Virus record (IMG/VR): IMGVR_UViG_3300031227_000253
Span: 1 to 31,428 of that record
DNA length: 31,428 nucleotides
DNA from: a virus
Strand: one strand, 5' to 3'
The first letter of the stretch is position 1. The number at the start of each line of letters is the position of its first letter. A program made the position numbers and the translations under genes. Of the stretch, positions 934-28,569 are shown piece after piece. Below the pieces are notes generated by a model. That model saw only the letters and a program-made list of their open reading frames with translations, searched no databases and had not been told where the DNA came from.

Positions 934-1400
934 TAACTCACCACATAATTTTTAAATATCTTTTGTATTTTTTTTGAATCTTCCGTTTGAAACAACATAT
1001 AAGGTCTTGCGGGAATATTCTTTTTTGTGCTCCCTTTTTGATGTACCATTGCATAAGTGAGATTAGTGCCTATCTCCAATCTGTCATTTGATAAGCGGTA
1101 TATAGATTTTGCCTTTGCTTTCTTCGGCGTGGGTGATGTGACGGAAGCTCTCAATACTCCGGTGTCCAGAAGTATTTGTGCTGTCCCAACCCCTTTACCT
1201 TTTCTTCTGCGTTTGATGGTTTTTTCTTTGAGTGGCCTCCAGCCAGTAGGTCTGCCCTGTGCTTGAAAATTCTCATTTATAGATTTATACATATGCACAC
1301 CTGCTAACTTCAGAGCAGGACGTAGATTTCCTGTCTTGTTGAGCATCTTCATCAGTCGTGCCATTACTCCGTGGGTATCCATACTAATCTTTGTTATCAT
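933..1400 (-). CDS. Phage virion morphogenesis protein (Mu gpG / P2 gpS-like)
   Basis: This 155-residue protein matches the Phage_tail_S (virion morphogenesis) family, which acts in tail completion or head-tail joining. Visible hallmarks are an N-terminal helix, a conserved stretch with FQAQGRPTGWRPLKEKT around residues 45-61, RILL-type LLDTGVLRASV near 77-87, and a C-terminal YAMVHQKGS...IPARPYM segment, where P-x-R-P-Y is characteristic. The length is normal for the family. It overlaps the DUF1320 gene by ATGA and is followed by the tail-terminator-like gene, as in Mu-like head-neck modules. Confidence 0.88.
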   Translation of the reverse strand: MITKISMDTHGVMARLMKMLNKTGNLRPALKLAGVHMYKSINENFQAQGRPTGWRPLKEKTIKRRRKGKGVGTAQILLDTGVLRASVTSPTPKKAKAKSIYRLSNDRLEIGTNLTYAMVHQKGSTKKNIPARPYMLFQTEDSKKIQKIFKNYVVS

Positions 1401-1870
1401 ACGTCTGCCCTATCGGTCGCAATATCATCAAGCCTGTTCTGGTCTTGCGTCCATTTCGTCGGATCGTCTACATCAAAGGTTGGCACATAATCATTTGTGG
1501 ATGACAATACTTGCTCCTGGCTGGTAATCTCATCAATGGTGATTTTATGGTCTCGGATGTCTTCAAGTTTTTTATATGCCGCCTTATAGTTGTCCATCCA
1601 CTCCGCCAGCAGAGCATCATTCTGCCGATATATTCCACGCATAACATAATACGCTGATAAGTCTTCGCAGATAGAATTGATTATTATAGGGATCGCCGCT
1701 ATCGTTAAGTCATCAATAGACTCCACCAAGTCCGAAGGAAGCACCGTTCTTATATCTGCCGTTCCCTTTACTATCGCGGGGGCAAGCTGCGCGCTGGGGA
1801 CTTCTTGTTCAGATGCACCCCCAAGAGTCAACCTCACTTCCGCTTCTGTGCAATAATCAAATGTCGCCAT
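1397..1870 (-). CDS. DUF1320-type head-tail connector (Mu gp36-like)
   Basis: This 157-residue, mostly helical protein begins MATFDYCTEAEVRLTLGG. The central helices (ICEDLSAYYVMRGIY, then KAAYKKLEDIRDHKI) match the pattern of DUF1320/gp36 and gp6-like connector proteins, which form the ring below the portal. Gene order (connector, then gpG-like protein) supports this. The ATG at 1870 has an AGGAG site, so the gene starts 37 bases inside the end of the cupin gene. That overlap is longer than most here and looks like the seam where the accessory island joins the structural genes. Confidence 0.75.
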   Translation of the reverse strand: MATFDYCTEAEVRLTLGGASEQEVPSAQLAPAIVKGTADIRTVLPSDLVESIDDLTIAAIPIIINSICEDLSAYYVMRGIYRQNDALLAEWMDNYKAAYKKLEDIRDHKITIDEITSQEQVLSSTNDYVPTFDVDDPTKWTQDQNRLDDIATDRADV

Positions 1871-2220
1871 TGCTTTATCTCCTCATTTGTGAGCTTCCCG
1901 CTTTCCGTTACTCTTTCGGTATCTGAATCTTCGTGATGTGTCGAAAACTCGATAATCGTTGAATATTCGCCTTTACTCAATCCGGCAAAGCTATGTAAGG
2001 TTCGGGGCTCAATAATAACCGTGTCCCCTGGTTTTAGTATTGTTTCCTCGCTTCCTATCCTCATACCCACTAACCCGTGGAGAATATGAAAAGCCTCGTC
2101 CTTTACTGGATGCCTATGGTAGCTGCAATGATAGCCCTTTTTGAGCTTCAGGAATTTCCCACAATATTCCCGATTGACTATCAAAAGTTCGTGGCCCCAT
2201 TTTTTATTTACTTTTTTCAT
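1834..2220 (-). CDS. Single-domain cupin, sugar-isomerase/epimerase-like
   Basis: This 128-residue cupin has a complete motif 1: G29, H35, H37, E42 and G49 with canonical spacing. Motif 2 is G65, P72 and H76. The metal would be bound by H35, H37, E42 and H76. The opening KKWGHELLIV resembles mannose-6-phosphate-isomerase-type cupins, and the late STHHEDSDTERV segment resembles small sugar-acting cupins in polysaccharide clusters. Fold and metal site are seen; a sugar or nucleotide-sugar substrate is inferred from the glycosyltransferases and methyltransferases upstream. Its start overlaps the end of the zinc microprotein gene. Confidence 0.8.
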   Translation of the reverse strand: MKKVNKKWGHELLIVNREYCGKFLKLKKGYHCSYHRHPVKDEAFHILHGLVGMRIGSEETILKPGDTVIIEPRTLHSFAGLSKGEYSTIIEFSTHHEDSDTERVTESGKLTNEEIKQWRHLIIAQKRK

Positions 2221-2359
2221 AGTCTTCTATCAACTTCGCAATATTCACTTGCCGCGGTATATGGTATGTGCCACATTTTGAGCAGAATATTATTGCTATT
2301 TCGCCCTTCACCATAGCTTCCCCGCATACACAGTTTTGTTTCGCGTCTTCAAATTTCAT
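2204..2359 (-). CDS. 51-residue zinc-ribbon microprotein
   Basis: A short frame starts at 2359, overlapping the methyltransferase stop as ATGA, and ends inside the cupin gene. It contains CVC at residues 10-12 and CSKC at 26-29, a compact treble-clef or zinc-ribbon pattern (NCVCGEAM...FCSKCGTYH). The ATGA coupling and the clean filling of the gap between two real genes support translation. Function is unknown; it may bind zinc and act as a small adaptor. Confidence 0.7.
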   Translation of the reverse strand: MKFEDAKQNCVCGEAMVKGEIAIIFCSKCGTYHIPRQVNIAKLIEDYEKSK

Positions 2360-2874
2360 ACTTTCCTCACAACAAAATCAAAGCTATATTCATCTTCTTC
2401 TGTATGCGGCTCAATCTTGACGATTTCATAATCAAGCCTGTGCAACCATTTCATTAAAATATCCGGGTCAACATCCCACTTGTGGTCTCTATTGGCATAT
2501 TTTGTACCAAGACAGGGATACGCACCTTTGAGCGGCAGATATAAAACCAGATAACCACCGGGCCGCAATACTCTGAACCACTCCTTCAAGGCTTTTTGGG
2601 GATGATATAAATGCTCCAATAGATGAGAACTGAAGACGTAATCAAGCGTATTGTCTCTAAACCAAAATAGATGTTCCGCATTACCTATAAGATTTGTCTG
2701 CTGCAAATCTACGCCGATCGCTAATGGGCTTATCTTGTTCTCCTTGCAAAAGTGAGCATCTATTTCTTGACCACCGCAACCGATATCCACACCGCTTCCA
2801 ATGCAATACACGCTCAGCCGTTCCCTACATTTGTCAACTTCTTTTCCCCCACAATGTATGCCTTTTTTAAACAT
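2356..2874 (-). CDS. Class I SAM-dependent methyltransferase (Methyltransf_11 type)
   Basis: This 172-residue methyltransferase has a SAM-binding motif I (GVDIGCGGQE), an acidic motif II at IGVDLQQ, SSHLLEHL as the motif IV-type segment, and LRPGGYLVLYLP as the post-motif strand. These are hallmarks of small-molecule O- or C-methyltransferases in natural-product and polysaccharide pathways. I place the start at the ATG at 2874, behind AAAGGAG; an in-frame TTG lies further upstream. It overlaps the GT9 gene by 8 bases. Substrate is unknown; context suggests a sugar. Confidence 0.85.
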   Translation of the reverse strand: MFKKGIHCGGKEVDKCRERLSVYCIGSGVDIGCGGQEIDAHFCKENKISPLAIGVDLQQTNLIGNAEHLFWFRDNTLDYVFSSHLLEHLYHPQKALKEWFRVLRPGGYLVLYLPLKGAYPCLGTKYANRDHKWDVDPDILMKWLHRLDYEIVKIEPHTEEDEYSFDFVVRKV

Positions 2875-3817
2875 GAACTTCCGGTCTCCTTTCTTCGCCC
2901 CAATATTCAAATGTGCTGTGATTAATAGTTGTGATTTGCCTTATAACTTTATCCCAAAGCGTACCCAAATCGTTTTCATTATTCAGACATACTAAACTTA
3001 CATAAGGATTAACCTCTTCAAGATATTTATTAATGTACCACATCGCCTGGCAGCGCAGAAGATTACCCCCCAAAACATTGTTATCGTTCCAGATTTCATA
3101 ACAGGTTAAACAGATTGATGTTACATTTTTCGCGAATGCCGGGTGCATATATAGCCCAAGGGACCCAATGTATGCTTTTGCGTTCATTGCCAAGTTCGTA
3201 GTCAACCTGATGCCTGCTTTGTTAACAAGATTGATAACGCCAAATTCTTCATAACCAAATTCTTCTTTCATTATTCGGTTATCTTCGGGCACATTTCTTT
3301 GATAAGTATTTCCTACAATAACAACTTGAAATCCTCGCGCTTTTAGTTTCTCAATTAAAAGGATATATTTCTCTGAAGCAAGACGGGCGCCATATCCGCC
3401 GAAAGGGTAAAGCAAAACATATTCCTTTTTTGCAATCTGCTTGAATTGTGTTTCTTCTTCCGGGGTCATTAGGATCGCTGGCATTTGCCACGGATAGTCT
3501 TTACAAAGTTCCTTCATTTGATAATCTCGCATCGGTTCACAATCATCTCCGGCATAGCGCGGAGGTAGGACAGTACCGTCATTTTCCCACGGTATATCAA
3601 TAAAGTCGTCGATCCAATCGTAAAGCTCGAATAATTGCTTTGCGGCCGGGTTATGTGAGGCAAGTACAAGTCTTATCTTTCTATCGGGGTTATCTTTCTT
3701 CCACTGCGCTATTTGGCCCCAATATGGCTGGCACCACGCCCTCCCGACGTCAGGGGTAAGTAATACCCGCAAGATGTCGCCTATACCGCCGCCTGCATTA
3801 AAACAAATGCCTTTCAT
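2867..3817 (-). CDS. GT9-family glycosyltransferase (heptosyltransferase-like)
   Basis: This 316-residue protein has the two-lobed GT-B layout of family GT9. The N-terminal acceptor loop is NAGGGIGDILRV (residues 7-18). The second lobe starts with LLYPFGG and a helix-strand with VVIVGNTYQR. The donor-side region is AYIGSLGLYMHPAFA, which retains the family G...H..A pattern but lacks the usual aspartate. GT9 enzymes use ADP-heptose or related nucleotide sugars to extend LPS core; this donor is unknown. The body is shorter than bacterial WaaC/WaaF (about 320-350 residues) but complete. It is translationally linked to its neighbours on both sides. Confidence 0.85.
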   Translation of the reverse strand: MKGICFNAGGGIGDILRVLLTPDVGRAWCQPYWGQIAQWKKDNPDRKIRLVLASHNPAAKQLFELYDWIDDFIDIPWENDGTVLPPRYAGDDCEPMRDYQMKELCKDYPWQMPAILMTPEEETQFKQIAKKEYVLLYPFGGYGARLASEKYILLIEKLKARGFQVVIVGNTYQRNVPEDNRIMKEEFGYEEFGVINLVNKAGIRLTTNLAMNAKAYIGSLGLYMHPAFAKNVTSICLTCYEIWNDNNVLGGNLLRCQAMWYINKYLEEVNPYVSLVCLNNENDLGTLWDKVIRQITTINHSTFEYWGEERRPEVHV

Positions 3818-4011
3818 GATTTTTCACCACTTGTTGGGTACATCGCCATTGCTTTTTTTAATGAGATTATAAATTTTTTTATCTGCTTCTTACCTTTAAA
3901 GTAAAATGTTTTAGAACCCACCTCTATGTGAACAGACCCATTATTATTATGAGCATATATACTCACGCTATGGGCAGAACCATTTTCAAAACAATTCACT
4001 CGACAAGGCAT
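3814..4011 (-). CDS. 65-residue hypothetical protein
   Basis: This small protein has a beta-rich first half (VNCFENGSAHSVSIYAH...VHIEVGSKTFYF) and a lysine-rich helix in the second half (KGKKQIKKFIISLKKAM). No family is recognised. Its stop overlaps the GT9 start as ATGA, which supports expression and coupling. The ribosome site (GGATGG) lies in the last codons of the small gene upstream. Confidence 0.6.
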   Translation of the reverse strand: MPCRVNCFENGSAHSVSIYAHNNNGSVHIEVGSKTFYFKGKKQIKKFIISLKKAMAMYPTSGEKS

Positions 4012-4014
4012 TTT

Positions 4015-4134
4015 TTACCATCCGAATTGAACATCACCATTTAATCGCACAAAACCTATAACTTTTTTATTTTTTGCTTCAATCCATCCTAACCATCCAA
4101 CATTCTTTGGATTACGATAAAACTTTATTTTCAT
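4015..4134 (-). CDS. 39-residue microprotein
   Basis: The ATG at 4134 has a strong GGGGAGG site at normal spacing, and the frame ends three bases before the next start. The peptide begins MKIKFYRNPKNVGWLGWIEA and ends in VQFGW. It is basic and tryptophan-rich, with a predicted beta-hairpin look. The strong ribosome site and precise fit between neighbours argue that it is translated. Function is unknown. Confidence 0.6.
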   Translation of the reverse strand: MKIKFYRNPKNVGWLGWIEAKNKKVIGFVRLNGDVQFGW

Positions 4135-4175
4135 CTTTTACCTCCCCATTTAATTATCTCACCACCATATACAAT

Positions 4176-4472
4176 TTAATCCCATCCATCATATTGTATA
4201 TCCCCAAAATCGTTTCCCACAACAACTACAACAAAAAAATAAAGAATAATGCTCATCACTACACCTATGCCTGCTACTTTAAACAATGTAAATATACTTC
4301 CTGAAAGATGTATAGAATTTTCCGAAACCCCAGTAACAATATAAACAAATGGTACAATTATAAAAGAACCGAGTATTATTATTCCTAATTCTTCAAACAT
4401 CTTTGTCCAGCGGGTTCTTTTATGATATTTCTCTGAAATTACACTATTAAAGCCGACTATTCTATCAATCAT
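4176..4472 (-). CDS. Small two-helix membrane protein
   Basis: From the ATG at 4472 this is 98 residues with two strongly hydrophobic segments: LGIIILGSFIIVPFVYIVTG, then VAGIGVVMSIILYFFVVVVVG. They are separated by a short polar loop (SENSIHLSG), and both ends are polar. The start overlaps the ParB-like/methyltransferase stop as ATGA; an earlier in-frame ATG at 4505 would lengthen the overlap to 37 bases. It could anchor a glycan-modifying complex in the inner membrane. A holin is possible by shape, but the location far from the amidase makes it less likely. Confidence 0.65.
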   Translation of the reverse strand: MIDRIVGFNSVISEKYHKRTRWTKMFEELGIIILGSFIIVPFVYIVTGVSENSIHLSGSIFTLFKVAGIGVVMSIILYFFVVVVVGNDFGDIQYDGWD

Positions 4473-5548
4473 CTTTCCACCATATAAAAAATCCGCCCAT
4501 GCCAAAAGCTCCCCAGTTCCTTTATACTGCCAAATCCAGTGGTTTCAAGAATAAAGTTTTTAAGACCGTCAGGCGTATCGAATATCGCCATTACTTCCGG
4601 GTCTTTAGAATGTACAATATCAACTACCGGCTCAAGCTCGAAAAAGAGCTTACGGTTTGTCATATCCGCGACCTTGCGTATCTCTTGCGCTATCTCATCC
4701 CGCTTCATCGTCTTGAAGTAATGATGAAATACGCTCAAATTAAGTACTACATCGAACTGCCTATCTCCCGGGAGGTTCTTATAATCCATTACCGCGCAGC
4801 ACCATTTCGCTAAGGCTGCCTGCGGTAGTTCGCTCCGGCGCATCAGGAACATCAAAAACGCTACTGTCATGCCGTGCTGGCAGAAGTCTATATTGAGAAA
4901 GAATTCCAATTCCTTTATACGCTCGCAGATATACCGGCTCATAAATCCGCTGCAGGCCCCGATGTCTAAGAAGGTGGTGTCATTATCATCAAGCTCGTCA
5001 ACTATCGCCTGGCCTCTTAGCGGGCTGTCCGGCCGCACTACTTTTAGATCCTCATACCCGGGTATCTCTAATGGCTGGTAAATCGTGTCGGGGCTGCCCC
5101 AAGGAAAGCCTTGCTTTACCTGCGCACGAATTTCATCATTAAATACGAGGCAGTCTATTTCATCCTTCCCCAGTGCTTCGGAAGCCATAAGCCGATGAAA
5201 GCCGTCTTTAAGGATCGGCCCCCCACCATTTATATACTGAACGAATACTGGCACTTTTACACCGTTCTTTTTAATATCTTCCATTAAGTCAAGGCGGTTA
5301 TATGCCAAGTCCCGGGCCGTCTGTTCTCCGAGACGTTCTACAAGGAGCTTGAAGTATGTAGTCGTTTCCACATTTGCTTCCGTTGTTGTAGGTACAAAGT
5401 AATTCCGGGCCGCTTTTACCATATCCGGATCGTTTGGCACGATGTCTTCAATCAATAACTTCTTCAATGGCGATACCCGATTATTCACAATCGTCATGTG
5501 GTCTATGTTACCACGGATCGCTTTGCATATTTGCGGCGCTCTATTCAT
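4469..5548 (-). CDS. ParB-like domain fused to a SAM methyltransferase
   Basis: This 359-residue two-domain protein starts at the ATG at 5548 behind a textbook GGAGGT site. An upstream in-frame ATG at 5587 is less likely. Residues about 25-140 look like a ParB/sulfiredoxin fold: LMEDIKKNGVKVPVFVQ, then LKDGFHRLMASEALG, where D-G-x-H-R is the ParB nucleotide-site motif. Residues about 178-359 are a class I methyltransferase with motif I FLDIGACSGFMS (about 193-204) and DVVLNLSVFHHY further on. ParB-like folds bind and hydrolyse CTP or ATP. How that couples to methyl transfer is unknown. It overlaps both neighbours by four bases. Confidence 0.8.
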   Translation of the reverse strand: MNRAPQICKAIRGNIDHMTIVNNRVSPLKKLLIEDIVPNDPDMVKAARNYFVPTTTEANVETTTYFKLLVERLGEQTARDLAYNRLDLMEDIKKNGVKVPVFVQYINGGGPILKDGFHRLMASEALGKDEIDCLVFNDEIRAQVKQGFPWGSPDTIYQPLEIPGYEDLKVVRPDSPLRGQAIVDELDDNDTTFLDIGACSGFMSRYICERIKELEFFLNIDFCQHGMTVAFLMFLMRRSELPQAALAKWCCAVMDYKNLPGDRQFDVVLNLSVFHHYFKTMKRDEIAQEIRKVADMTNRKLFFELEPVVDIVHSKDPEVMAIFDTPDGLKNFILETTGFGSIKELGSFWHGRIFYMVER

Positions 5549-6147
5549 CTTGAAACCTCCACTAATGACCCTTGGATTCTTTCGCATGTGTAACCATATT
5601 TTAAAACAAATTCATCAATTGCTTTGGTGGCTCCAGGAGTTTTAGCCCACCCGTAATCATGGCTATAAATTCTCCCGTTCATTGCTATTCTCGCCCGAGA
5701 TAACTCCAAACAAAATGCAACCGTCCGATAAAAGTCTACATCTATAAACACCAGACTGGGAGCAGCGGGTAGAAATTGCTCACTTTCAAAAATGTCCTTT
5801 TCTATTAAGATAACATTATCCAGCCCCAGCGCAGCCATACGCTTCAAAAATGTTTCCTTTTTCCCTTTTATTTCGCCCTTACTATGTGGACAATCAGCTA
5901 CAGCATCTTCTGTTCCAGGTTCAGGTAATCCCTTAAACCATTCTACTGAATATACTTTTTTCTTTCCTAATTGCTTCGCAGTCAGCGCCAAGAGTGCTGT
6001 GGAGTATCCTTCAAATGCTCCAAATTCTAAGATGTCCCCAGTGACATTTTGAGTTCTCCTTACAGCTTGGCACAACCCCTCCGCCTCACCTTGCAAAATA
6101 AAGCCTCCCCCAGCTTCGTTGACTTTTTGGATTATTTCTCTATCCAT
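5545..6147 (-). CDS. TylF/MycF-like O-methyltransferase
   Basis: This 200-residue protein has the layout of macrocin-O-methyltransferase-like enzymes. It carries SAM motif GDILEFGAFEGYSTALLA (about residues 37-54), VYSVEWFKGLPEP as the acidic strand, then PSLVFIDVDFYRTVAFCLE, where the two aspartates resemble the metal-binding residues of TylF/NovP enzymes. GRIYSHDYGW..PGATKAIDEF follows and is very typical of the family. Known members methylate sugar hydroxyls using Mg2+. The start is the ATG at 6147 behind AGGAG. The sugar substrate is inferred from the family and neighbours. Confidence 0.85.
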   Translation of the reverse strand: MDREIIQKVNEAGGGFILQGEAEGLCQAVRRTQNVTGDILEFGAFEGYSTALLALTAKQLGKKKVYSVEWFKGLPEPGTEDAVADCPHSKGEIKGKKETFLKRMAALGLDNVILIEKDIFESEQFLPAAPSLVFIDVDFYRTVAFCLELSRARIAMNGRIYSHDYGWAKTPGATKAIDEFVLKYGYTCERIQGSLVEVSR

Positions 6148-6721
6148 CAATTTCTCCTATCAGCAAGCCGTTAGCTCCCCCGAATGGCTTATTATATTTC
6201 GCATCCTTAATTCCTTCCCAGGTAGCTTCTGTCCACGCATTTTCCGCGGATATTCTTTTCAGGCAATATGTCTTGTCGAATGTTATTATCCCAGCTTTGA
6301 TTCGTTCATCCATATTACGGTTCCAACCAAGCGGTAAGCTAACCATCACTTTTCCACCCGGCGCCAGCAAAGTTTTCAAATGGTTAAGTGTCTTCCCCGT
6401 CTTCGCCGGGTCCTGGGGCGGATCTTTCAAAGTACCCACATGCTCAATCGTGGAAATGCTTATAATGAGCTTGTATCTTTTCCCTATGTCAAAAGTAAGA
6501 GCATCTTCGTTTATAACATTGTCGGACTTCTCGTATTTGTCAACGACTATGTGATGCACTTCGTAATAATGAGCGAGTACATTTCCAACTTCAAGTATGT
6601 CCGCCGCCGGGTAACTTGAAATCATATCCCAGAATATCGGCACCTCGACGATCCGTTCGCCCGGGTTATTTCTCCAGTATTGATATTCTTTGCTTCTATA
6701 CATAAATGTCTTTGGTCTCAT
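6140..6721 (-). CDS. SAM-dependent methyltransferase-like protein
   Basis: This 193-residue protein has a degenerate motif I (ADILEVGNVLAHYY), an acidic strand (HIVVDKYEK), a motif IV-like IISISTIEHVG, and LLAPGGKVMVSLPLGWN. The middle keeps the methyltransferase signature, but the glycine-rich loop is reduced to EVGNVL, so SAM binding may be altered. It overlaps the upstream methyltransferase stop by ATGA and the downstream TylF-like start by 8 bases. It is probably one of several enzymes acting on the same glycan. Confidence 0.78.
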   Translation of the reverse strand: MRPKTFMYRSKEYQYWRNNPGERIVEVPIFWDMISSYPAADILEVGNVLAHYYEVHHIVVDKYEKSDNVINEDALTFDIGKRYKLIISISTIEHVGTLKDPPQDPAKTGKTLNHLKTLLAPGGKVMVSLPLGWNRNMDERIKAGIITFDKTYCLKRISAENAWTEATWEGIKDAKYNKPFGGANGLLIGEIDG

Positions 6722-7194
6722 TTTCCTATCCTCGCAATTACTTTCATATCGTGAACCTTGTTAATATTAAAGCTCCGATCCTCTATCTTCTGGCCCGGAA
6801 GAGGATTCAGCGTAACCTCACACTCTTTGAAGCAACCATGCGTAATCCCTAATCGCTTGACAAGCGCGGGTTCTTTAAAATGCCGCCATGTTTCCTCGTT
6901 GAACAGCCGAACATGCTGCGGGTCAGCTACCGCGCCATTCCATGTCCAGTAAGGCACAACTAATTTTAATATCGCGTCTTCTTTGCTTACTCGAAATATC
7001 TCATCCATAAGCGGGATGAAGTTTCTGATATGCTCAAAGATTGAATATGCGTGTGTCTCTATAATGGTATTATCCTCGATGAACGGCAGGCCGTTCTCCA
7101 GGTCGGCGACGTGAGTCGTGGAAGCAGTCTTTATTTTATCCACTTTGTAATCGCCCCAGGTGTCATTTTCACAGCCGAGATTGAGCGTTTTCAT
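6718..7194 (-). CDS. Short SAM-dependent methyltransferase-like protein
   Basis: This 158-residue protein begins directly with motif I (MKTLNLGCENDTWGDYKVD). It continues with an acidic stretch (THVADLENGLPF) and AYSIFEHIRNFIPLMDEIFRVSK, the typical 'E-H...L.E..RVLK' methyltransferase segment, then LVVPYWTW. It lacks the N-terminal helices of full-length enzymes but otherwise follows Methyltransf_11 order. It is coupled by ATGA to the glycoside hydrolase upstream and the next methyltransferase downstream. Substrate is unknown. Confidence 0.78.
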   Translation of the reverse strand: MKTLNLGCENDTWGDYKVDKIKTASTTHVADLENGLPFIEDNTIIETHAYSIFEHIRNFIPLMDEIFRVSKEDAILKLVVPYWTWNGAVADPQHVRLFNEETWRHFKEPALVKRLGITHGCFKECEVTLNPLPGQKIEDRSFNINKVHDMKVIARIGK

Positions 7195-8213
7195 ATCAGT
7201 TCGCCTTTTTTCTTCTCGATAAATAACGGATGTCTCGTTATGATAAGGTCTTTGTATTCAATTGGTTCTTCAAGGTCGTGCCAAATAATGTGAAGCCACT
7301 TATCTCCAGCATCAAAGATGTAGTGAAAGATATAGTCATTCTTCCACCATTCGCTTGCAAAGTGCGGCGCAGAACGCCGGTAGAACTGCATGTCTTTGAG
7401 ATATTTATGCGTTGTCTTTACAGCATAAAATGCCGTTGTCCGATTGCCGTTTTTATCCAAGAGACCCCAATGCTGGTCTGCGCCTTCCTTTAGATATTCC
7501 AGTTTAAAATAATATGCTGCTTCATACCCTAAATGCCGGAAGATAATATAAGTTTTTATAAAATCATCTGCCTGGTCAATGCAGGTATATGGGCAGTCGC
7601 CGGATATATTCTCTGCTGTTCCGAATTCGGTGACAGCAAGCGGCTTATCAATATGGTAAAGGTTTAATATTGATATGAAGTTATAATATGCGGAGTATAA
7701 CTGCTGAATCCCGCCGTAGTATCGTGTCCACATTACCAGTGACAAGCTATCAACAACATCGTCTATCCTGCACCTGCACAGGCGGTGAATAAATTCCGTG
7801 TGGTCTGCGCCGCGTAAGCCATAACTGCTGCCGGAGTAGAACGAACCTGTTCCAAGGGTTGCGGCCGGTGGCACAAGATGCGCGAATTCCTTGAGTACTT
7901 TTATATACTCCTCCGGCGTGCCCTCCCACCTGCACCCGGGTTCGTCTTTTTTGATATCCGGCTCCCCGCCAAACTCCCAATGACTGACGATGTCTCCATA
8001 TTCCTTTACTATGTCTGGGTCCAAAAAGTCCCTCTCCACTCGTAGCGGGATATAACGTGCATGGACTTCAACACCCTTATCGACCAACATCTGGAGAAGT
8101 TTTTTATCAGGCAGGCTTATATGGAATGCCAGCAAAATGCTATCCACACCCAGGTCAATGATGTGCGGGATATATTCTTCTTTTAGTTGCGCTATGTTAA
8201 TTCCTAACTTCAC
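7191..8213 (-). CDS. Clan GH-A glycoside hydrolase-like TIM barrel
   Basis: This protein of about 340 residues reads as an alpha/beta barrel: LGINIAQL at the first strand, SILLAFH, VHARYIPL, then HWEFGGEPD and, about 110 residues later, LAVTEFGTAE. Clan GH-A enzymes carry the acid/base glutamate after strand 4, usually in an N-E-P context, and the nucleophile glutamate after strand 7. Here E84 (GGEPD) and E196 (VTEFG) fit, counting from the GTG at 8213. That GTG overlaps the HAD stop as GTGA and sits 10 bases after GGAGG; an ATG at 8222 is the alternative but is too close to that site. No signal peptide is visible, so it may act in the cytoplasm or on the virion. Confidence 0.75.
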   Translation of the reverse strand: MKLGINIAQLKEEYIPHIIDLGVDSILLAFHISLPDKKLLQMLVDKGVEVHARYIPLRVERDFLDPDIVKEYGDIVSHWEFGGEPDIKKDEPGCRWEGTPEEYIKVLKEFAHLVPPAATLGTGSFYSGSSYGLRGADHTEFIHRLCRCRIDDVVDSLSLVMWTRYYGGIQQLYSAYYNFISILNLYHIDKPLAVTEFGTAENISGDCPYTCIDQADDFIKTYIIFRHLGYEAAYYFKLEYLKEGADQHWGLLDKNGNRTTAFYAVKTTHKYLKDMQFYRRSAPHFASEWWKNDYIFHYIFDAGDKWLHIIWHDLEEPIEYKDLIITRHPLFIEKKKGELI

Positions 8214-8530
8214 GGCCGCCATTCCTCCGCTTTGCAGCTATCATTATCAATGTAAACATCCCCTTTGGGCTTGCCGAGTATAATCTCGTTGAAGCGCACT
8301 TCATTTTTTAGCAACCATTCCCTCGTCTGCTTCATTCTCTTCCCTGTATTCGACCTTGCTGAATGAAAGACAATCCTGTCGCCGTTGTTATACGCTGTGA
8401 TAATCTTTTCTTTCATCCCCTGGTCACAAACCTTATGCTCTAAAATCCAGTCAATGTCGTGTTCAAAGTCGCCCGGGACTTTGATGTCCATTGCCAGCGT
8501 ATTGTCAAGGTCGATTATGTACGTTTTCAT
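8210..8530 (-). CDS. HAD-superfamily phosphatase-like protein
   Basis: This 106-residue minimal HAD protein has motif I DLDNTLA (D7 nucleophile, D9), motif II VFHSARS (S58 region), a lysine in LGKPKG and motif IV DVYIDND. All four catalytic motifs are present without a large cap domain. Similar small HAD proteins occur in capsule clusters and phages; substrates are usually phosphorylated sugars or nucleotides. It is coupled by ATGA to the small gene upstream and by GTGA to the glycoside hydrolase. Fold confidence is high; substrate is not known. Confidence 0.85.
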   Translation of the reverse strand: MKTYIIDLDNTLAMDIKVPGDFEHDIDWILEHKVCDQGMKEKIITAYNNGDRIVFHSARSNTGKRMKQTREWLLKNEVRFNEIILGKPKGDVYIDNDSCKAEEWRP

Positions 8531-8781
8531 TTTGGTATCTCTATGATTTCGTTGCCTTCCAATTTTTTTAACTCCGTAATATCGGTAGCTGGGTGTGGTT
8601 GTTTATCCTTATTCGACAAATCCGCTGCGTCCTGTATTACTTTCCACGCTCCAACCAATCCGTTTAAATCCTCTGGTTTTGTGTCAATAGGCACTGTATG
8701 TTTAACGTGAGGATATCCCTCGACAGTTACGACAATCATATCTTTCACGGCGTTATCCACTTCTATTTTTAATATTTTCAT
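8527..8781 (-). CDS. 84-residue hypothetical protein
   Basis: This is a small protein with a beta-rich N-terminal half (MKILKIEVDNAVKDMIVVTVEG) and a charged C-terminal helix (ELKKLEGNEIIEIPK). It follows the tail-fibre-like gene and is coupled by ATGA to the HAD gene. A role as a small chaperone or accessory for the surface protein upstream is possible but cannot be shown. No known family is recognised. Confidence 0.65.
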   Translation of the reverse strand: MKILKIEVDNAVKDMIVVTVEGYPHVKHTVPIDTKPEDLNGLVGAWKVIQDAADLSNKDKQPHPATDITELKKLEGNEIIEIPK

Positions 8782-8790
8782 AGCAAATCC

Positions 8791-9729
8791 TTAAAATAAT
8801 TTCTCTACATACAGAAAAGTATCTTTCCCTGCATCTGCGTCTCGGTTTACTGTGTCGTTGTGATATGTCCACAATTCTATATAATCCGTTGCGTTTAAGT
8901 AAAGACATTCGTTGACGAAAGGAATACCTGTTGATAAAATAATAGCGTATGTTTTTTCTGCACCGTTTAGGTAGATAGCTGTGTAGGATACTTTCCCCAA
9001 TACGAGTGCGTTTATCCTCGCTGCTCCACCTATAAGGTAAACCCCGTCTACAGGAGCGACAAAGCGGTAATTTGTAACATTATCATAGTCAGCGTTTTGG
9101 TCGTAGCCCTCTACGTCAAGTTGCAGTTTTGTCCACGTTGATTTGACAATAGTTTGGTCGCCTGAAAGATATGCTCTACACGCTGGTTGTAGCGCATTTG
9201 TGAGGATACCAGCATCGTCTATTGTTATACCCGAAGTCTGTACTTTCTTTGCACCGCCGTCTCCTCGGACAATAGCGTGGTCGGTAAGATTAGCATCAGC
9301 AGATACATCACCACCGCCAGCATTATCATCAACATATTTCTTTGTCGCTGCGTCTTGGTTGGCTGCAGGGTCAACTACACCTGTGATTTTATGCGTTCCC
9401 ATAGCAAGGTCTTGAGCTTGCGTGCCCTGAGTTGTATCTGCACCTTCCGTATGTTTCTTTGTAATAGCATCATCAGTGCCATATATCATTGACTTTTCCG
9501 CAACGGAAGCCCAGCTCACCGTAGCAAGATTATTCGTCAAGGCATCACTATTGGCGGTTAAAGTAACAGTAGTCAAATTCGTTCCGCCAGCATAAGATGA
9601 GGAATCCACCCAACCATACTTATACCCATCGCCTGCACAGTTCGCCTGTATCGCCCTGCTTGCTGAGAAGATAGATGTCTGGTCTCCTATTACCGTAAAA
9701 TTAGTCGCATCGACATAAGTAGCATCCAT
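8791..9729 (-). CDS. Tail-fibre-like virion surface protein with C1q/TNF-like head
   Basis: This 312-residue protein is built like phage fibre or receptor-binding proteins. The N-terminal half is rich in T, S, A and G. It includes DQTSIFSASRAIQANC..GYKYGWVDSSS, common in phage surface proteins, and a GVVDPAANQDAATKKYVDD element typical of fibre shafts. Residues about 185-312 look like a trimeric C1q/TNF-type jelly roll: AYLSGDQTIVKSTWTKL, then RFVAPVDGVYLIGGAARI, ending in TFLYVEKLF. It could be a decoration or adhesion protein. It is unusual that it sits in the head region rather than with the tail genes. Confidence 0.75.
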   Translation of the reverse strand: MDATYVDATNFTVIGDQTSIFSASRAIQANCAGDGYKYGWVDSSSYAGGTNLTTVTLTANSDALTNNLATVSWASVAEKSMIYGTDDAITKKHTEGADTTQGTQAQDLAMGTHKITGVVDPAANQDAATKKYVDDNAGGGDVSADANLTDHAIVRGDGGAKKVQTSGITIDDAGILTNALQPACRAYLSGDQTIVKSTWTKLQLDVEGYDQNADYDNVTNYRFVAPVDGVYLIGGAARINALVLGKVSYTAIYLNGAEKTYAIILSTGIPFVNECLYLNATDYIELWTYHNDTVNRDADAGKDTFLYVEKLF

Positions 9730-9730
9730 A

Positions 9731-10204
9731 TCAACAATCCTCTCCGTAATCTTGGTTCACTCCATATAATCTCGGTACAGAACCTTTATTGAATTCAATT
9801 TCAAGTTCAAGCCATCTGCCTTTTGGGGCTTCATTATCAACGGGGCTTTCGGTGTACCAATCTGTCCACGCTGCCGATGCTAAACCCGCTTCTGTCATTG
9901 CTGACCTCGCTCTTATCCTTATAGTTGATGTATCCGGTTCTGTGTCGGTCCAGCTTAATGTTGCCCATCCGTTATTCGCGTCTCCACCGGAATCAAACTT
10001 AACCCCATATGACCCAAGTTTAACTTCATCATTTTCTGCATCTATCCATTCCTCATCTTGGTCTGCATCTTCAATATAAGTCCGGCTTTGAAATTCTTGA
10101 CGTTCTGCGAGAGCAATCTCATCATCTGACCCAACGATAACGCCGTCATAAGTACCTTTTGATTCAAGAAAGTCCGTATCGGTTGTCCAAGTTTTGACAG
10201 CCAT
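9731..10204 (-). CDS. Beta-sandwich virion surface protein
   Basis: This 157-residue acidic protein lacks a signal peptide. Its centre is an immunoglobulin/fibronectin-like beta pattern (WATLSWTDTEPDTSTIRIRARS..), then AAWTDWYTESP...GRWLELEIEF, where 'RxLELEIEF' strands are common in phage surface proteins. It immediately precedes the fibre-like gene in transcription. Inference: a connector or base that links the fibre to the particle. Its ATG overlaps the upstream stop as TAATG. Confidence 0.6.
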   Translation of the reverse strand: MAVKTWTTDTDFLESKGTYDGVIVGSDDEIALAERQEFQSRTYIEDADQDEEWIDAENDEVKLGSYGVKFDSGGDANNGWATLSWTDTEPDTSTIRIRARSAMTEAGLASAAWTDWYTESPVDNEAPKGRWLELEIEFNKGSVPRLYGVNQDYGEDC

Positions 10205-11070
10205 TATAAAGCTCTTGCTTTCTCTAAAATAAGACTCTCCTTGATTGGTTTCGTATCTCCTAACTTTCCCAAGATGTTAAAAGCTCTCAATAGTTTTTGC
10301 GGGTCTACCCCGTATTCAATTACCCGCTTCGCTTCTTCATGCTTGCTCAACTTGTAACCCTCGTCGTCGACGATAACGCCGTGAAAGATATGCTCAGGTA
10401 TATAGTCAATCAATTGCCCTGTTTCATTCTCAAGCCAAGAAAAAGAAAGTAAATCTATACCATCAATGGAATGGGTAATACCTAATTCTTTATTATCAAA
10501 CGATGAAGTAAATCCAAGCTCGGCAGTTTTTTCCATCCACAAGACAACATCAAGAGGAAATTCACACTTCAGCCGCACTACTGTTTTTATATCGTCGAGG
10601 TTCAGTTTCAATTCCCTATCCCTACAAAAATCATCATAGTGCGATGTCTTGCTGCACCGGTATTTATACCACGCCTTGTGATGCTGAAAGAATTCGTGTT
10701 TATAGGGCCTTATAATTGCCCGGCAAGGTATCGGCCATTTGCCCTCGTCCATCCTTTTCACCATGTCCTCTTCTGAACAGTCGCAGAAATACACATCATC
10801 GCGGGACAATAGTTTTTCAATAGCTTCCCGGTATAAGTCTATTCGTTCGTGTTGCTTCAATACAAAATCAGGAACAATGCCGAACACTTTCAAGTCTTCA
10901 ATAATGCTGTCCGCATACTCAAGGCGAACATCAGTCGTCAACTGCCCGTCTATCCTTACGCCGAACTCGCCGCGGTGCATTTTGGCATAAGTATAATTGA
11001 GCCACGCATTGTATAGGCCGCCCATGTGCAAAAATCCACTCATAGTTGGACAAAACCAAGTTTTAATCAT
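10204..11070 (-). CDS. Glutamyl-tRNA synthetase-like enzyme lacking the anticodon domain
   Basis: This 288-residue protein has the class I catalytic fold of the GluRS/Glu-Q-RS group. The HIGH-like motif is SGFLHMGG (H15), followed by the family's YTYAKMHRGEFGVRID segment, QHERIDLYREAIEKLL, ITHSIDGIDLL and the KMSKS-like YKLSKHE (240s). CDC (96-98), C116 and further cysteines (139, 149) suggest zinc binding. There is no anticodon-binding domain, as in Glu-Q-RS (about 300 residues). Glutamate-contacting arginines appear replaced: W5 where GluRS has R in TRFAPS, and D203 where it has R in VIRGED. ATP-dependent acyl-adenylate chemistry is likely; glutamate as substrate is doubtful. The start is the ATG at 11070 (ATGA overlap). 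Confidence 0.82.
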   Translation of the reverse strand: MIKTWFCPTMSGFLHMGGLYNAWLNYTYAKMHRGEFGVRIDGQLTTDVRLEYADSIIEDLKVFGIVPDFVLKQHERIDLYREAIEKLLSRDDVYFCDCSEEDMVKRMDEGKWPIPCRAIIRPYKHEFFQHHKAWYKYRCSKTSHYDDFCRDRELKLNLDDIKTVVRLKCEFPLDVVLWMEKTAELGFTSSFDNKELGITHSIDGIDLLSFSWLENETGQLIDYIPEHIFHGVIVDDEGYKLSKHEEAKRVIEYGVDPQKLLRAFNILGKLGDTKPIKESLILEKARAL

Positions 11071-11360
11071 CCCCCGAAAGCTCCCTTTCTTGGTCTTAAA
11101 ATACGGTTTCTTATCGGCGGCAGAGCAGCCACAATCTTGAGCGCATCTGCTAATACTTCCACGCATAATCTTTTCTTATTTTGCATCACGCCCTTTATAC
11201 CCTCAACATACGTCTTGCCGGAATCGCTGACGCCTATAACCATCAAAGGATTTACTTCTTCGGAAACCCCTTTAAATGTCCCCAGATTGCCCAGTTTTGC
11301 TTTCTGCGCTTCATCTCTACTTTCCTCTTTGCTTTTCTCAAACTCATTCCCGTTTGTCAT
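11067..11360 (-). CDS. 97-residue hypothetical protein before the synthetase-like gene
   Basis: The N-terminal 25 residues are highly charged (FEKSKEESRDEAQKAK). The rest contains VNPLMVIGVSDSGKTYVEGIKG, a loose resemblance to a nucleotide-binding loop that I do not trust, and a basic C-terminus. The ATG at 11360 follows GGAGG. It overlaps the end of the tandem GT9 gene by 17 bases and the synthetase-like gene by ATGA, so the three are probably co-translated. Function is unknown. Confidence 0.6.
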   Translation of the reverse strand: MTNGNEFEKSKEESRDEAQKAKLGNLGTFKGVSEEVNPLMVIGVSDSGKTYVEGIKGVMQNKKRLCVEVLADALKIVAALPPIRNRILRPRKGAFGG

Positions 11361-13239
11361 TACATCCTCCGATTATTTTTCGCGCCGTATTCAGCAACAT
11401 ATCCAATTTCTCGCCCAGCCTAAAACAGTGCAGCAGGTCTGGCCGGCATCCCGCCAAGCCATTAAGAGCTTTAGAATAATCATCAACTTCTATAATCACT
11501 GGGATTCCCAGGGCGCTTGCGGCCAGCTTTAAGCCTGTATCGCCGCCCATGAACAGTGATGCGCCACTAATAATCTTCAAGGTTTCGTTTAGCAGTAAAC
11601 CCTCGGACGTTAAATCGGTAATGCCGGCAATAGGCTCGATGCTGTCATATTTTGCGCCTACCCGGACAACGCTAATATTCTTTGACAGCCGCCTGCATAG
11701 GCTTGCGTATTTCTCAAAATCCAAGGCACGCCTTGAGACGTACCCCTGGTCATCATCGCGCTTTCCTGTCCTCTGTAATACATGAACGACGATATAAGGC
11801 TGTTCCGGGAGCTTATACATTCTGTCCACATGCTCGGGCACCACCATTTTAGGATAGAACTTGTGTTTATCGGCCAAGCGTTTGACGTCATCCCAAATGT
11901 AAAAAGACCCGTTGACATAACTATGCATTGCTATTCTGTCCTTATCTCCTACAGGCTCATCGTAATACCTATGGATGGGAAACTTAATCCAATCAAGAAT
12001 ATTAAAATCTCTTGACCACCTTACGCTTTCACCTTCTCCACGGTTACATATTCCCCGGACCCAAGATACCCGGGCCGGATATTTCTGCGTAATAAATTGG
12101 AACATTGCAGCAACACCTATTTGATCGCCTATCTGGTCGTGGCGGGAATCATAGACGATCTCTTTTTTAAGGTCATGGTCGAATATAGACGGCTGCCTAT
12201 TGCGCCTGTATATTTCCTTTTTTTGTATGCGCAGGTCAAACCGCTTTACCACCTTGTCCATAATCATACCTGATTTTATCATTGTCATACATTTCCGTTC
12301 TGGACACTCGGTTTTGGCAACTCCCCAGCATGGGCAACAATCAAGCCCCTGCCCTGGCCAGACATAATCTGCGTTATAATATTTGAGCTGCACTTTCGGG
12401 TCTGATGGACCGAACAAAGCCAGCACTCTTTTACCAAGCGCCCCCGCTAAGTGCATAAGCCCGGAGTCAAGCGTAATCATTAAGTCCATCTGGTTGACTA
12501 TTGATGCTGTTTCCCGGAGCCCGTACCCAATCACCGGTACGATATCTCTATCTATCCAATCGGGTAGCTTTTTAGTATGAAAAAGATATAATTGTAATTC
12601 TTTATATTGAATAAGGCTATCGTAGAGCTGGCCCCACAGAACATCCGATACGTTCCTTTGAGATCCGGCGCTTTTATATTGTATTCCTATCTTTATATTA
12701 TCTGTATTAGCGAAATCCTTGCCCCACCTTGTTTCTGCTTTGGTGAGTTTGATTTCTGGTCTTGAAGGTTCTACGCCACACGCCGCGCAGTATATCTCTA
12801 TTCTATTTTTGCCGATATTCTCGCGGCCTCGCTCGTAATTAACATCAGGAGTCGATAGGTTGATTACGCCTTCCGGGAGTAACATATTTGCCTCATAAGG
12901 TACGAGCGCATCAATATATTTAAGATTCTGCGCTATTGGAAGGTATCTCTCATCTACCATAAAGGCTACCTTCTTCTCGGGATATTTGTTCTTTAGCCCC
13001 TTAAGAGCAGCAAGGCAGCTTATTACGTCCCCCAGGCCCCCTCGGTTACGCGCTACAGTAATATCGGTCTTCTTCGGCCTCGTAGGCACGACAGACGGGA
13101 ACTTTTTGACAAAGCGCACCCTCTTACCCTCTTCGGCAAGCGTTAGAAGGATATCGTCGGGCTCATGCTCAATATCCCTGCGCTGATATACTCTTTGTTT
13201 GGCAGTTATACCACTTTTTAAGATTTCTACAGGTACCAC
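11344..13239 (-). CDS. Tandem two-domain GT9 glycosyltransferase with a phage N-terminal domain
   Basis: This 631-residue fusion begins at a GTG (13239) behind GGTGG. Residues 1-45 (VPVEILKSGI...RDIEHEPDDIL) repeat the pattern of the small protein encoded just upstream. Residues about 60-335 form a GT9 domain with RNRGGLGDVISCLAALKGL at the acceptor side and the family signature DSGLMHLAGALG (D258, H263). A Cys cluster at 301-317 follows. Residues about 358-631 are a second GT9-like domain (DQIGDQIGV, then GGDTGLKLAASALGIP at 565-580). Its signature His position is Leu, so it may be a binding or inactive copy. GT9 enzymes transfer heptose-type sugars. The fusion suggests targeting to the capsid or partner proteins. 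Confidence 0.85.
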   Translation of the reverse strand: MVPVEILKSGITAKQRVYQRRDIEHEPDDILLTLAEEGKRVRFVKKFPSVVPTRPKKTDITVARNRGGLGDVISCLAALKGLKNKYPEKKVAFMVDERYLPIAQNLKYIDALVPYEANMLLPEGVINLSTPDVNYERGRENIGKNRIEIYCAACGVEPSRPEIKLTKAETRWGKDFANTDNIKIGIQYKSAGSQRNVSDVLWGQLYDSLIQYKELQLYLFHTKKLPDWIDRDIVPVIGYGLRETASIVNQMDLMITLDSGLMHLAGALGKRVLALFGPSDPKVQLKYYNADYVWPGQGLDCCPCWGVAKTECPERKCMTMIKSGMIMDKVVKRFDLRIQKKEIYRRNRQPSIFDHDLKKEIVYDSRHDQIGDQIGVAAMFQFITQKYPARVSWVRGICNRGEGESVRWSRDFNILDWIKFPIHRYYDEPVGDKDRIAMHSYVNGSFYIWDDVKRLADKHKFYPKMVVPEHVDRMYKLPEQPYIVVHVLQRTGKRDDDQGYVSRRALDFEKYASLCRRLSKNISVVRVGAKYDSIEPIAGITDLTSEGLLLNETLKIISGASLFMGGDTGLKLAASALGIPVIIEVDDYSKALNGLAGCRPDLLHCFRLGEKLDMLLNTARKIIGGCNDKRE

Positions 13240-13251
13240 AACCCGCCACCT

Positions 13252-13473
13252 TTAGACAGTATGTCCTTTTGATTCCGGCTCCTTGGGATTCTCTTCCTCG
13301 GGCACTTCAATCCATTCAGCTCGCGTATCAGCTTTCTTGTTCGCCACTTTTTGTATCTTCTCGCAAGGCTTACGCTCAATGTCACCTTCTGTATAGATAA
13401 CATTGTCCCCTATCAAACCAGTTTTTAAAATCCGAACCGCTTTCACCATTCCTTTTGCGCTTTCTTCTGGCAT
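13252..13473 (-). CDS. Small head-region protein sharing a domain with the tandem GT9
   Basis: This 73-residue protein contains VKAVRILKTGLIGDNVIYTE followed by GDIERKPCEKIQKVANK. The pattern 'V-x-I/V-L-K-x-G...V-Y...D-I-E' also opens the GT9 fusion downstream. Short proteins of the 'V-L-K...Y..GD' type are common between capsid genes in phages, where they are thought to bind or decorate the head. The C-terminal third is acidic and disordered. It lies directly after the major capsid gene with an AAGGAG site, so it is a good candidate for a minor head protein. Confidence 0.65.
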   Translation of the reverse strand: MPEESAKGMVKAVRILKTGLIGDNVIYTEGDIERKPCEKIQKVANKKADTRAEWIEVPEEENPKEPESKGHTV

Positions 13474-13541: not shown

Positions 13542-14525
13542 TTACGTCGTTGTGTCGAATCTTACGAGCTTATTGACGTGAGTAACTATCGGAATAAATG
13601 ACTGCTCCTCAAGCACCCAGACACCAGCTGGATCTTCCTCTTCCCACGACTTGGAGAATTTCCCAGGTCTGAAGTTCGCCTTCGGATCCGTAGCTGGGCC
13701 AGTATCCTCTCTGGCAAACGTACCGGGCGGAGTTGTGAAGAACACATAATCATCCGCGATAAACCGAGTGAACGTACTTGTACTGGCGGGAACGTAGCCG
13801 ATATCGTACCATGTCCAGGTCAGCCCCATGAATCGGGTAATATACCCCGTTGTGGCTATCTGGTTTTTCATGCTATCTCCCATCTTGTCCTTCACATAGT
13901 TGTTCTTCTGGAGATAGACCATAACGCTCTCATTGGCATACGCTTCGGTGCAGACAGCGCCGGAATCAGCGTTAATGAGACGTTTACACGTTCGGATATC
14001 ACCAGGAATATCTGTAGTTGCCGTGGCCCAAGTAACCGCCGCCACCGCGTTCTTATGCGTGGTATCAATCCGCTCATCAATAACGAACATCACGTCGTCC
14101 TGTGCGACCGTGATAGTTCCCGTCATTGCCTGCCATCTCATCCACTCCTTACGAAACTCAAGTCGGCTGTCAAGCTCATCAAGCTCTTCGCCAACTGCCG
14201 CATCCTTCCACTGCTGATGCTCCGTACCCGGCTTTCTCAACCAGGCCATTGTTACTCCGTCAAGCTGCTTTTTCTCTCTGATGTATGCCTGAGTCGCCGT
14301 CTGTGACTTCACGCCGCGCCTGTTTACTATCTTGGCGGGCGCCCCCGGAACCGAGAAGTCAGCCATATCCCTATTGTGCTCGATGATGTCCCACTTTGAT
14401 GTATTGGATAGTACTTTCTTCTCCGGGAAGAGTGAGCCCCCAATAAATGCAGGGCGCTTAAACTTCTCAACTATCCCGGTCATTACTTCATGCTGCAAAA
14501 TATCCAATTGTCCAAATTCTGGCAT
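13542..14525 (-). CDS. Major capsid protein (lambda gpE-like family)
   Basis: This 327-residue protein fits the phage major capsid protein E family. It starts DILQHEVMTGIVEKF, has an E-loop-like basic segment with ..VNRRGVKSQTATQAYIREKK, and a helical spine (LDELDSRLEFRKEWMRWQAMTG). P-domain strands follow with YVPASTSTFTRFIADDYVFFTT, and the C-terminus ends IVTHVNKLVRFDTTT. It follows the protease/scaffold and decoration genes, the lambda-like order. The GGGAGGTGAAG ribosome site is among the best in the window, as expected for the most abundant virion protein. Confidence 0.92.
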   Translation of the reverse strand: MPEFGQLDILQHEVMTGIVEKFKRPAFIGGSLFPEKKVLSNTSKWDIIEHNRDMADFSVPGAPAKIVNRRGVKSQTATQAYIREKKQLDGVTMAWLRKPGTEHQQWKDAAVGEELDELDSRLEFRKEWMRWQAMTGTITVAQDDVMFVIDERIDTTHKNAVAAVTWATATTDIPGDIRTCKRLINADSGAVCTEAYANESVMVYLQKNNYVKDKMGDSMKNQIATTGYITRFMGLTWTWYDIGYVPASTSTFTRFIADDYVFFTTPPGTFAREDTGPATDPKANFRPGKFSKSWEEEDPAGVWVLEEQSFIPIVTHVNKLVRFDTTT

Positions 14526-24352: not shown

Positions 24353-25024
24353 TTAGAGTTGCCAAAACTTCGTTTGTTTATCTTCTTCTGCGAACCGGCG
24401 GTCTAAATCAAAGACGGTTGTGCCATCGCTTCTGAATGTTGAGTCTGTTGCTGATTGCATTTCGAGTAATCTTTTCCACAAATCAGGGAAATATTTACGC
24501 AGGTTTCTTAACTCTTTTAAGTTTTGAAAGGGGCAACACCAACAAGACACCCTATCGAAATAATTGTATAGCCCACCCCAATCAAAGCCCTTTCTGTAGC
24601 AATACTCTAAGCAATCTTCTTCGTGCCAGCCCCATTCTATGAGGGGAAACACTTTGCCATCCGCAACCTTGTTTTCCGTTCTTTTCAATTCGTCTGCCGA
24701 GTACCCAATATAGACTAAAGAGTCTTTTGGTAATCCCCTTTTTAATCCATCCCTTTTTCCCCCCGTACACCAGTTACCCTTAAAGCGAGGAAAGCCATAT
24801 CCTATCCGAGTAAACAACCCATCAAATGAAGTCACTGGCTCAATCTTGGTTAATGGCAAAGGCAATATCTCTCGCACTTTACCAATGTGTTCTTTCATCT
24901 GTGGAAACTCCCAAGAACCACAGTCAAAATATCTCACCTCATCAATCGGCATTTTAAGCTCTATCATTCGTAAGAGCATAGCCGTTGAGTCTTTGCCACC
25001 CGAAAAAGATACTATGTGTTTCAT
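24353..25024 (-). CDS. PAPS reductase / ATP pyrophosphatase superfamily protein
   Basis: This 223-residue protein has the PP-loop SFSGGKDST (6-14), VRYFDCGSWEFPQM, WCTGGKRDG and YIGYSADE, typical of the phosphoadenosine phosphosulfate reductase-like family common in phages. A late Cys cluster (SCWCCPF) resembles members that bind metal. Known relatives adenylate a substrate for sulfur or base-modification chemistry, including DndC and some nucleotide-modifying enzymes; the substrate here is unknown. It is ATGA-coupled to the amidase gene and sits between the amidase and its partial copy. Confidence 0.85.
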   Translation of the reverse strand: MKHIVSFSGGKDSTAMLLRMIELKMPIDEVRYFDCGSWEFPQMKEHIGKVREILPLPLTKIEPVTSFDGLFTRIGYGFPRFKGNWCTGGKRDGLKRGLPKDSLVYIGYSADELKRTENKVADGKVFPLIEWGWHEEDCLEYCYRKGFDWGGLYNYFDRVSCWCCPFQNLKELRNLRKYFPDLWKRLLEMQSATDSTFRSDGTTVFDLDRRFAEEDKQTKFWQL

Positions 25025-27674: not shown

Positions 27675-28505
27675 TCATTTTCTAAAGTTCAATACATTTT
27701 GTCTCAACCTATTCCTTGCTATTTCGCAATACTCCTCGTTAATTTCTATGCCTATGAATTTACGATTTAATTCTTTGCAAGCTACTGCCGTAGTGCCGGA
27801 TCCGAGGAAAGGGTCAAGGACAAGGTCTCCCTCATTAGTTGTTAGTTTTATACATCTTTCTACAAGCTTTATTGGTAATTCATTACAATCACGCGTTTTA
27901 TTTTTTGTATGCCTTATTCGTTCTATATCATCCCAAATATCTGATAAGCATTTTCCTTCTTCATTCCTGTATTTTTCTTTCCCGCCCCAGTCAGCTATCA
28001 ACCCCCCACAATGGCGACAATACTGGTGAGGGGATAGGTCTCCTTTCCGATTAAATGTTGTTACTTTTCCTTTTGAATACCGGAGCATTACATAGTGAAA
28101 AGGGTTTAAATTATATTGGTTGACCCAACTTTCAAATTTTACCGCTACCCAATTCTGGAAGACCATCCCCACCGGCCACGATACTTCTTCTAATTTATGT
28201 GCAGTATGGATGGCGTGTTTCGGTATTTGGTGTACCCATATCTGTCCACCTTCCGTTATTTTACACGTGATTGCTTTAAGCCAAAAGCCAGTCCACCGCC
28301 GATAGTCTTTTTCAGTCAGCTTGTCGTCAAAAGAATATCCATAGTTTTTTTGAAGATTAAAGGGTGGATCCGCAAACACCACATCTACACTATTGTTGGG
28401 CATCTTCGGTAATATCTCCAGACAATCACCGCAATAGATAACGCCAGCTTCTTCTTCGTGATAAGGTTCTATACCGATAGCTGATTTAATTTCTTCAAGG
28501 TTCAT
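27675..28505 (-). CDS. DNA methyltransferase, beta-class N6-adenine or N4-cytosine type
   Basis: This 276-residue enzyme has the catalytic motif DPPF (46-49) before the SAM-binding motif I LDPFLGSGTT (about 230-239), the beta-class order. An insertion has a zinc-like YCRHCGG (about 162-168). The C-terminus (FIGIEINEEYCEIARNRL) is typical. DPPF does not separate N6-adenine from N4-cytosine modification. It probably protects phage DNA from host restriction or marks the origin. A good AAAGGAG site precedes the ATG at 28505. Confidence 0.9.
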   Translation of the reverse strand: MNLEEIKSAIGIEPYHEEEAGVIYCGDCLEILPKMPNNSVDVVFADPPFNLQKNYGYSFDDKLTEKDYRRWTGFWLKAITCKITEGGQIWVHQIPKHAIHTAHKLEEVSWPVGMVFQNWVAVKFESWVNQYNLNPFHYVMLRYSKGKVTTFNRKGDLSPHQYCRHCGGLIADWGGKEKYRNEEGKCLSDIWDDIERIRHTKNKTRDCNELPIKLVERCIKLTTNEGDLVLDPFLGSGTTAVACKELNRKFIGIEINEEYCEIARNRLRQNVLNFRK

Positions 28506-28569
28506 CGAAACTCCTTTATCGCCTCAATATGCAAACACCCAAACTTCCCACAGCTACATTCGTATTCGT

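Follow-up and report, generated by a model that had tools for sequence, protein, structure and literature searches.

The window, that is, the whole stretch of DNA analysed, is the entire IMG/VR record, a linear fragment of 31,428 bases, and all of the genes discussed here lie on its minus strand. Their order is terminases, portal and minor head genes, protease-scaffold, decoration, major capsid, an island of additional genes, a gp36-like connector and neck. The island measures 11.6 kb (1834 to 13473) and comprises about 18 ORFs on a single strand (Table 1). A sequence-only reading of the window had placed this block between the major capsid and connector genes, and family searches agree: these two genes flank it on either side, and the gene after the connector encodes a neck protein (phrog_26, 1.5e-25). 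The overlaps that had been described through most of the block are also borne out. With corrected starts, the island junctions are mostly 4-nt ATGA overlaps or 1-44-nt overlaps. ATGA overlaps join s97 to the GluQ-RS-like gene (11070), s84 to the HAD gene, the GH-A-like gene to MT158 and MT158 to MT193 in the upstream half, and the TylF/NovP-like gene to ParB-MT (5548), ParB-MT to tm109 (4472), sp65 to the GT9-like gene and MT184 to zn51 in the downstream half. The cupin gene and the gp36-like gene overlap by 37 nt. A search of the island for promoter-like and terminator-like sites gave none above chance. Away from the island, the early region of the window encodes a PAPS-reductase-family protein (24353-25024; phrog_424, E=2e-41). 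Two adjacent DNA methyltransferase genes (27675-29550; phrog_67 and phrog_363) are located beside a DnaD-like replication protein.

Table 1. Genes of the island and of its two edges, in gene order, with the matches or motifs on which each description is based.
Feature	Position	Strand	Evidence
Major capsid protein, upstream edge	13542..14525	-	phrog_29 E=3.6e-46
s73, stand-alone copy of capsid-neighbour domain	13252..13473	-	profile of other phages' proteins only, E=5.8e-4 in 15,933 ORFs
GT9d631, capsid-neighbour domain, GT9 domain and second glycosyltransferase-like half	11344..13239	-	PF01075 5.3e-16
s97, small protein	11067..11360	-	ORF; no family match
GluQ-RS-like enzyme, catalytic domain only	10204..11070	-	tRNA-synt_1c PF00749 3e-23
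s157, possibly virion-surface protein	9731..10204	-	no family match
fib312, fibre-like protein, stalk motif and phrog_15750 C-terminal domain	8791..9729	-	phrog_15750 2.5e-8
s84	8527..8781	-	ORF; no family match
HAD-type phosphatase	8210..8530	-	phrog_1238 1.2e-10; EcbF-BcbF capsule phosphatase 0.0025
Putative GH-A-like protein, motif level only	7191..8222	-	WEFGGEPD and TEFG motifs
Methyltransferase MT158	6718..7194	-	phrog_6636 1.5e-6
Probable methyltransferase MT193	6140..6721	-	PF13489 1.3e-5, 25.4 bits vs cut-off 27
TylF/NovP-like sugar O-methyltransferase	5545..6147	-	PF13578 9e-10, TylF 8.5e-6; top PDB match NovP E=0.012
ParB-MT, ParB-like N-terminus and methyltransferase	4469..5548	-	PF08241 3.8e-5
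tm109, small membrane-like protein	4176..4472	-	ORF
sp65, small ORF	3814..4011	-	ORF
GT9-like protein, motif level	2867..3817	-	G-x-GD motif; profile comparison E=0.012, N-terminal motif only
Methyltransferase MT184	2356..2874	-	PF08241 1.2e-14
zn51, small cysteine-rich ORF	2204..2359	-	ORF
Cupin, sugar-isomerase-like	1834..2220	-	PF07883 3.6e-10; D-lyxose isomerase 2e-5
gp36-like head-tail connector, downstream edge	1397..1870	-	PF07030 3e-5, just under its cut-off; phrog_195

In family searches of the island, a single GT9 enzyme was identified, composed of two glycosyltransferase-like halves, together with four methyltransferases, a fifth (MT193) just under the cut-off, and one each of a HAD-type phosphatase, cupin, GluQ-RS-like enzyme and fibre-like protein. 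The several methyltransferases, the HAD and cupin proteins and the aminoacyl-tRNA-synthetase-like enzyme of the sequence-only reading are thus confirmed, and so is the first of its two GT9 enzymes, GT9d631. The second, the GT9-like protein, gave no family match, its AF2 model (pLDDT 33) is too poor to use, and tblastn in annotated phages found no relatives of it. The GH-A hydrolase named in that reading comes down to its motifs: no family was matched, a PDB glucosidase match was not significant (E=0.85), a fold search with the poor AF2 model (pLDDT 43) gave nothing significant, and neither a single-protein scan nor tblastn in annotated phages returned relatives. The N-terminal part of ParB-MT matches phrog_3951 (2e-4), 'ParB-like' being a reading of its sequence. 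Its top PDB matches are to WbdD and are weak (E=0.024), and tblastn in annotated phages found no relatives of this protein. The fibre-like protein fib312 further matches phrog_26630 (tail fibre, 4e-5) and phrog_2647 (head decoration, 7.5e-4).

GT9d631 scores 59 bits against PF01075, over the cut-off, and harbors both the G-x-GD and D-S-G-x-M-H motifs (G68LGD and D258SGLMH, at residues 68 and 258). The second half of the protein matches TIGR04372 at residues 482-582 (1.9e-5), below the cut-off of that model. Against the LPS heptosyltransferase I equivalog TIGR02193 (NCBIfam), the protein reaches 62.5 bits vs a cut-off of 185.3. A single-protein scan and tblastn in annotated phages each found no relatives of GT9d631. 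About residues 1-45, at the N-terminus, are by profile comparison a fused small domain that is encoded in related phages by the first gene or so past the capsid gene, and that we call the capsid-neighbour domain. A profile built from eight proteins of other phages, with the window sequences excluded, was searched against 15,933 ORFs and matched GT9d631 with E=2.4e-7. With s73 included in the profile, the isolated N-terminus scored 35.9 bits, the best shuffled control remaining below 9 bits. The domain was not matched in two other GT9-type enzymes with N-terminal extensions (L062, 678 aa, and L099, 637 aa), and Pfam holds no model for it.

The GluQ-RS-like enzyme, of 288 aa, keeps the HIGH-type HMGG at residue 15 and the KMSKS-type KLSK at residue 240 and is devoid of an anticodon-binding domain. 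GluQ-RS models are its best family matches, yet it scores 96 bits against an NCBIfam equivalog cut-off of 256. In the alignment to GluRS structures, a W and a D are found at the positions of two arginines that are conserved in glutamyl-tRNA synthetases, and that we take to be glutamate-binding residues. A single-protein scan for GluRS-like relatives returned none, and tRNA-synt_1c had no match in 31 related records. An aminoacyl-tRNA-synthetase-like enzyme with an altered substrate pocket, accompanied by several methyltransferases, could provide the adenylating step of a pathway that hypermodifies a small molecule or nucleic acid. We consider such a pathway highly improbable: sugars are the substrates of the GT9 and TylF/NovP types, the site lies among virion genes, and the island yielded no DNA-modification partner, the window's DNA methyltransferases being located at 27675-29550.

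Relatives of the window were gathered with the capsid protein, and one IMG/VR contig, 3300035698_010850 (L113), was found by a scan with ParB-MT; a scan for close relatives using the structural neighbour g469 returned this contig only. It shares 83-92% DNA identity with the window and has the same order of ParB-MT, GT9-like gene, MT184 and gp36. ParB-MT is 96% identical between the two (dN/dS 0.059) and the GT9-like protein 92% (dN/dS 0.066); the structural neighbours gp36 and g469 have dN/dS values of 0.073 and 0.083, respectively. MT184 is 82% identical, with a saturated dS and a dN of 0.106. The contig begins inside ParB-MT, and the comparison thus covers the downstream third of the island; the upstream two thirds are so far seen in the window alone. 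The neck protein of the contig (2557-3108) is 48% identical to that of the window and both of its neighbours are 88-94% identical, the mark of a local replacement.

This contig is devoid of zn51, sp65 and, except for a short 3' remnant, the cupin gene, and its tm109 is reduced, only the first codons matching. The island thus consists of a core under selection and of small genes that vary. In the nearest relatives by capsid (L046-L048, 51-52%), the capsid gene is followed directly by the connector gene, which makes the island accessory. Missing or reduced small genes, together with a site whose content varies among relatives (fibre-like and beta-helix proteins in L004, nothing in L046), would suit a moron hot spot, where independent accessory genes without a common pathway gather at a permissive position. 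However, the content is skewed toward sugar transfer and methylation, and the order of ParB-MT, the GT9-like gene and MT184 is kept under purifying selection, so that we find a mere hot spot quite unlikely.

Glycosyltransferase and/or methyltransferase matches between the capsid and tail genes were observed in 8 of 27 related virus records, four families being searched in all (L005, L050, L052, L053, L056, L062, L065 and L068); some of these records are near-identical or closely related and represent fewer than eight independent events. A GT4 gene is positioned immediately 3' of the capsid gene in L050 and L053 and near it in L005 and L068, and L056 and L065 have a GT9-like gene and a methyltransferase inserted. 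The distant relative L062 encodes, between its neck and tail genes (7261-11489), a GT9-like protein, a methyltransferase, a TylF-like protein and a tandem GT9, with matches to phrog_6804 and phrog_6564. PF01075 was matched in none of 44 mostly distant records and in 7 of 48 others, several of these matches being far from the capsid gene. Separately, a large phage record (L099; G076:42563-42970) encodes, away from its capsid gene, the 637-aa protein mentioned above, which combines a GT9 domain with an apparent GT8-like second glycosyltransferase.

The main rival explanation assigns these enzymes to the host surface. They would modify the LPS core, O-antigen or capsule late and thereby block superinfection or re-adsorption to debris, and the operon position would only set their timing. 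GT9 enzymes are typically LPS heptosyltransferases, the HAD protein resembles capsule phosphatases and ParB-MT weakly resembles WbdD. Nevertheless, GT9d631 falls far under the heptosyltransferase equivalog cut-offs and carries the fused capsid-neighbour domain, a fibre-like protein is encoded amid the island genes, and the placement among head genes recurs in other phages. A role at the host surface thus seems rather unlikely.

A late virion-glycan module within the structural operon is, in our view, the best explanation of the island and probably the correct one. That the island is a late glycan/methylation module is well supported, because of its family content, the order kept under purifying selection in the L113 contig and the similar insertions in other phages. 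This much of the glycan system first proposed for the particle or host surface stands; a single pathway through all of the genes is conjectural, and two of the enzymes named are putative. The target would be the virion rather than the host surface. Sugar donors would come from the host, or the cupin and HAD enzymes would adjust them; the GT9-type enzyme or enzymes would join the sugars into a chain, which the TylF/NovP-like and other methyltransferases would O-methylate. The product may decorate proteins of the capsid surface (major capsid, decoration protein or fib312) during assembly. Translational coupling with the flanking capsid and connector genes would make the enzymes and the particle appear together, and the capsid-neighbour domain at the N-terminus of GT9d631 may hold the enzyme to the assembling head. 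Several observations count against a virion glycan: beyond the cupin and HAD enzymes no donor-sugar synthesis set was found in the island, L046-L048 are devoid of the island, some of its genes come and go, and two of its proteins, the GT9-like and the GH-A-like, are assigned at the level of motifs. The GluQ-RS-like enzyme has no part in this scheme. In a more elaborate version, which we hold to be very doubtful, the capsid-neighbour domain would dock the double glycosyltransferase on assembling heads, where the tethered and perhaps packaged enzyme would glycosylate the particle itself, and a repurposed GluQ-RS-like enzyme would aminoacylate the glycan.

Virion glycosylation has been shown for few phages. 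Within the records examined, the island is the largest glycan-type block among head genes. The fusion in GT9d631 suggests a testable coupling of sugar addition to capsid assembly, and the insertion region of the head operon is a place to find further glycosylated phages in metagenomes.

Insertions of glycosyltransferase and methyltransferase genes in phage structural operons are already known, and mycobacteriophage virion glycosylation has been reported by others. The Cluster O mycobacteriophage Corndog carries an O-methyltransferase and three glycosyltransferases (gp35-38) between its portal and protease genes, for which capsid modification was proposed in 2015 (PMC4351075). A later paper, citing Freeman 2023, states that the enzymes of the Corndog group modify capsid and tail proteins (PMC11600133). 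The island likewise combines, within a virion structural operon, GT9d631 between capsid and gp36 with the TylF/NovP-like protein (5545-6147) and other methyltransferases. Corndog differs in having four genes only and in their position, and neither PMC4351075 nor PMC11600133 mentions aminoacyl-tRNA-synthetase-like, cupin or HAD genes or a capsid-neighbour fusion. Pseudomonas phages D3 and PAJU2 encode a GT9-like protein, matched by a phrog_6804-type query, and a methyltransferase between their head closure and tail genes (orf12-orf13). These are two genes only, the D3 GT9-like protein is without the D-S-G-x-M-H motif, and the role of the pair there is a prediction from sequence. In Microcystis phage Mae-JY09, a glycosyltransferase lies between the capsid and head-tail adaptor genes, as in the island, but it is a single GT4-type (RfaG) enzyme with no methyltransferase annotated. 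S-CBS4 carries a methyltransferase along with two glycosyltransferases in the interval from portal to capsid, and in Magritte a glycosyltransferase adjoins the major tail gene. Compared with these systems, the island is new in its size, its content and its double glycosyltransferase with a fused capsid-neighbour domain.
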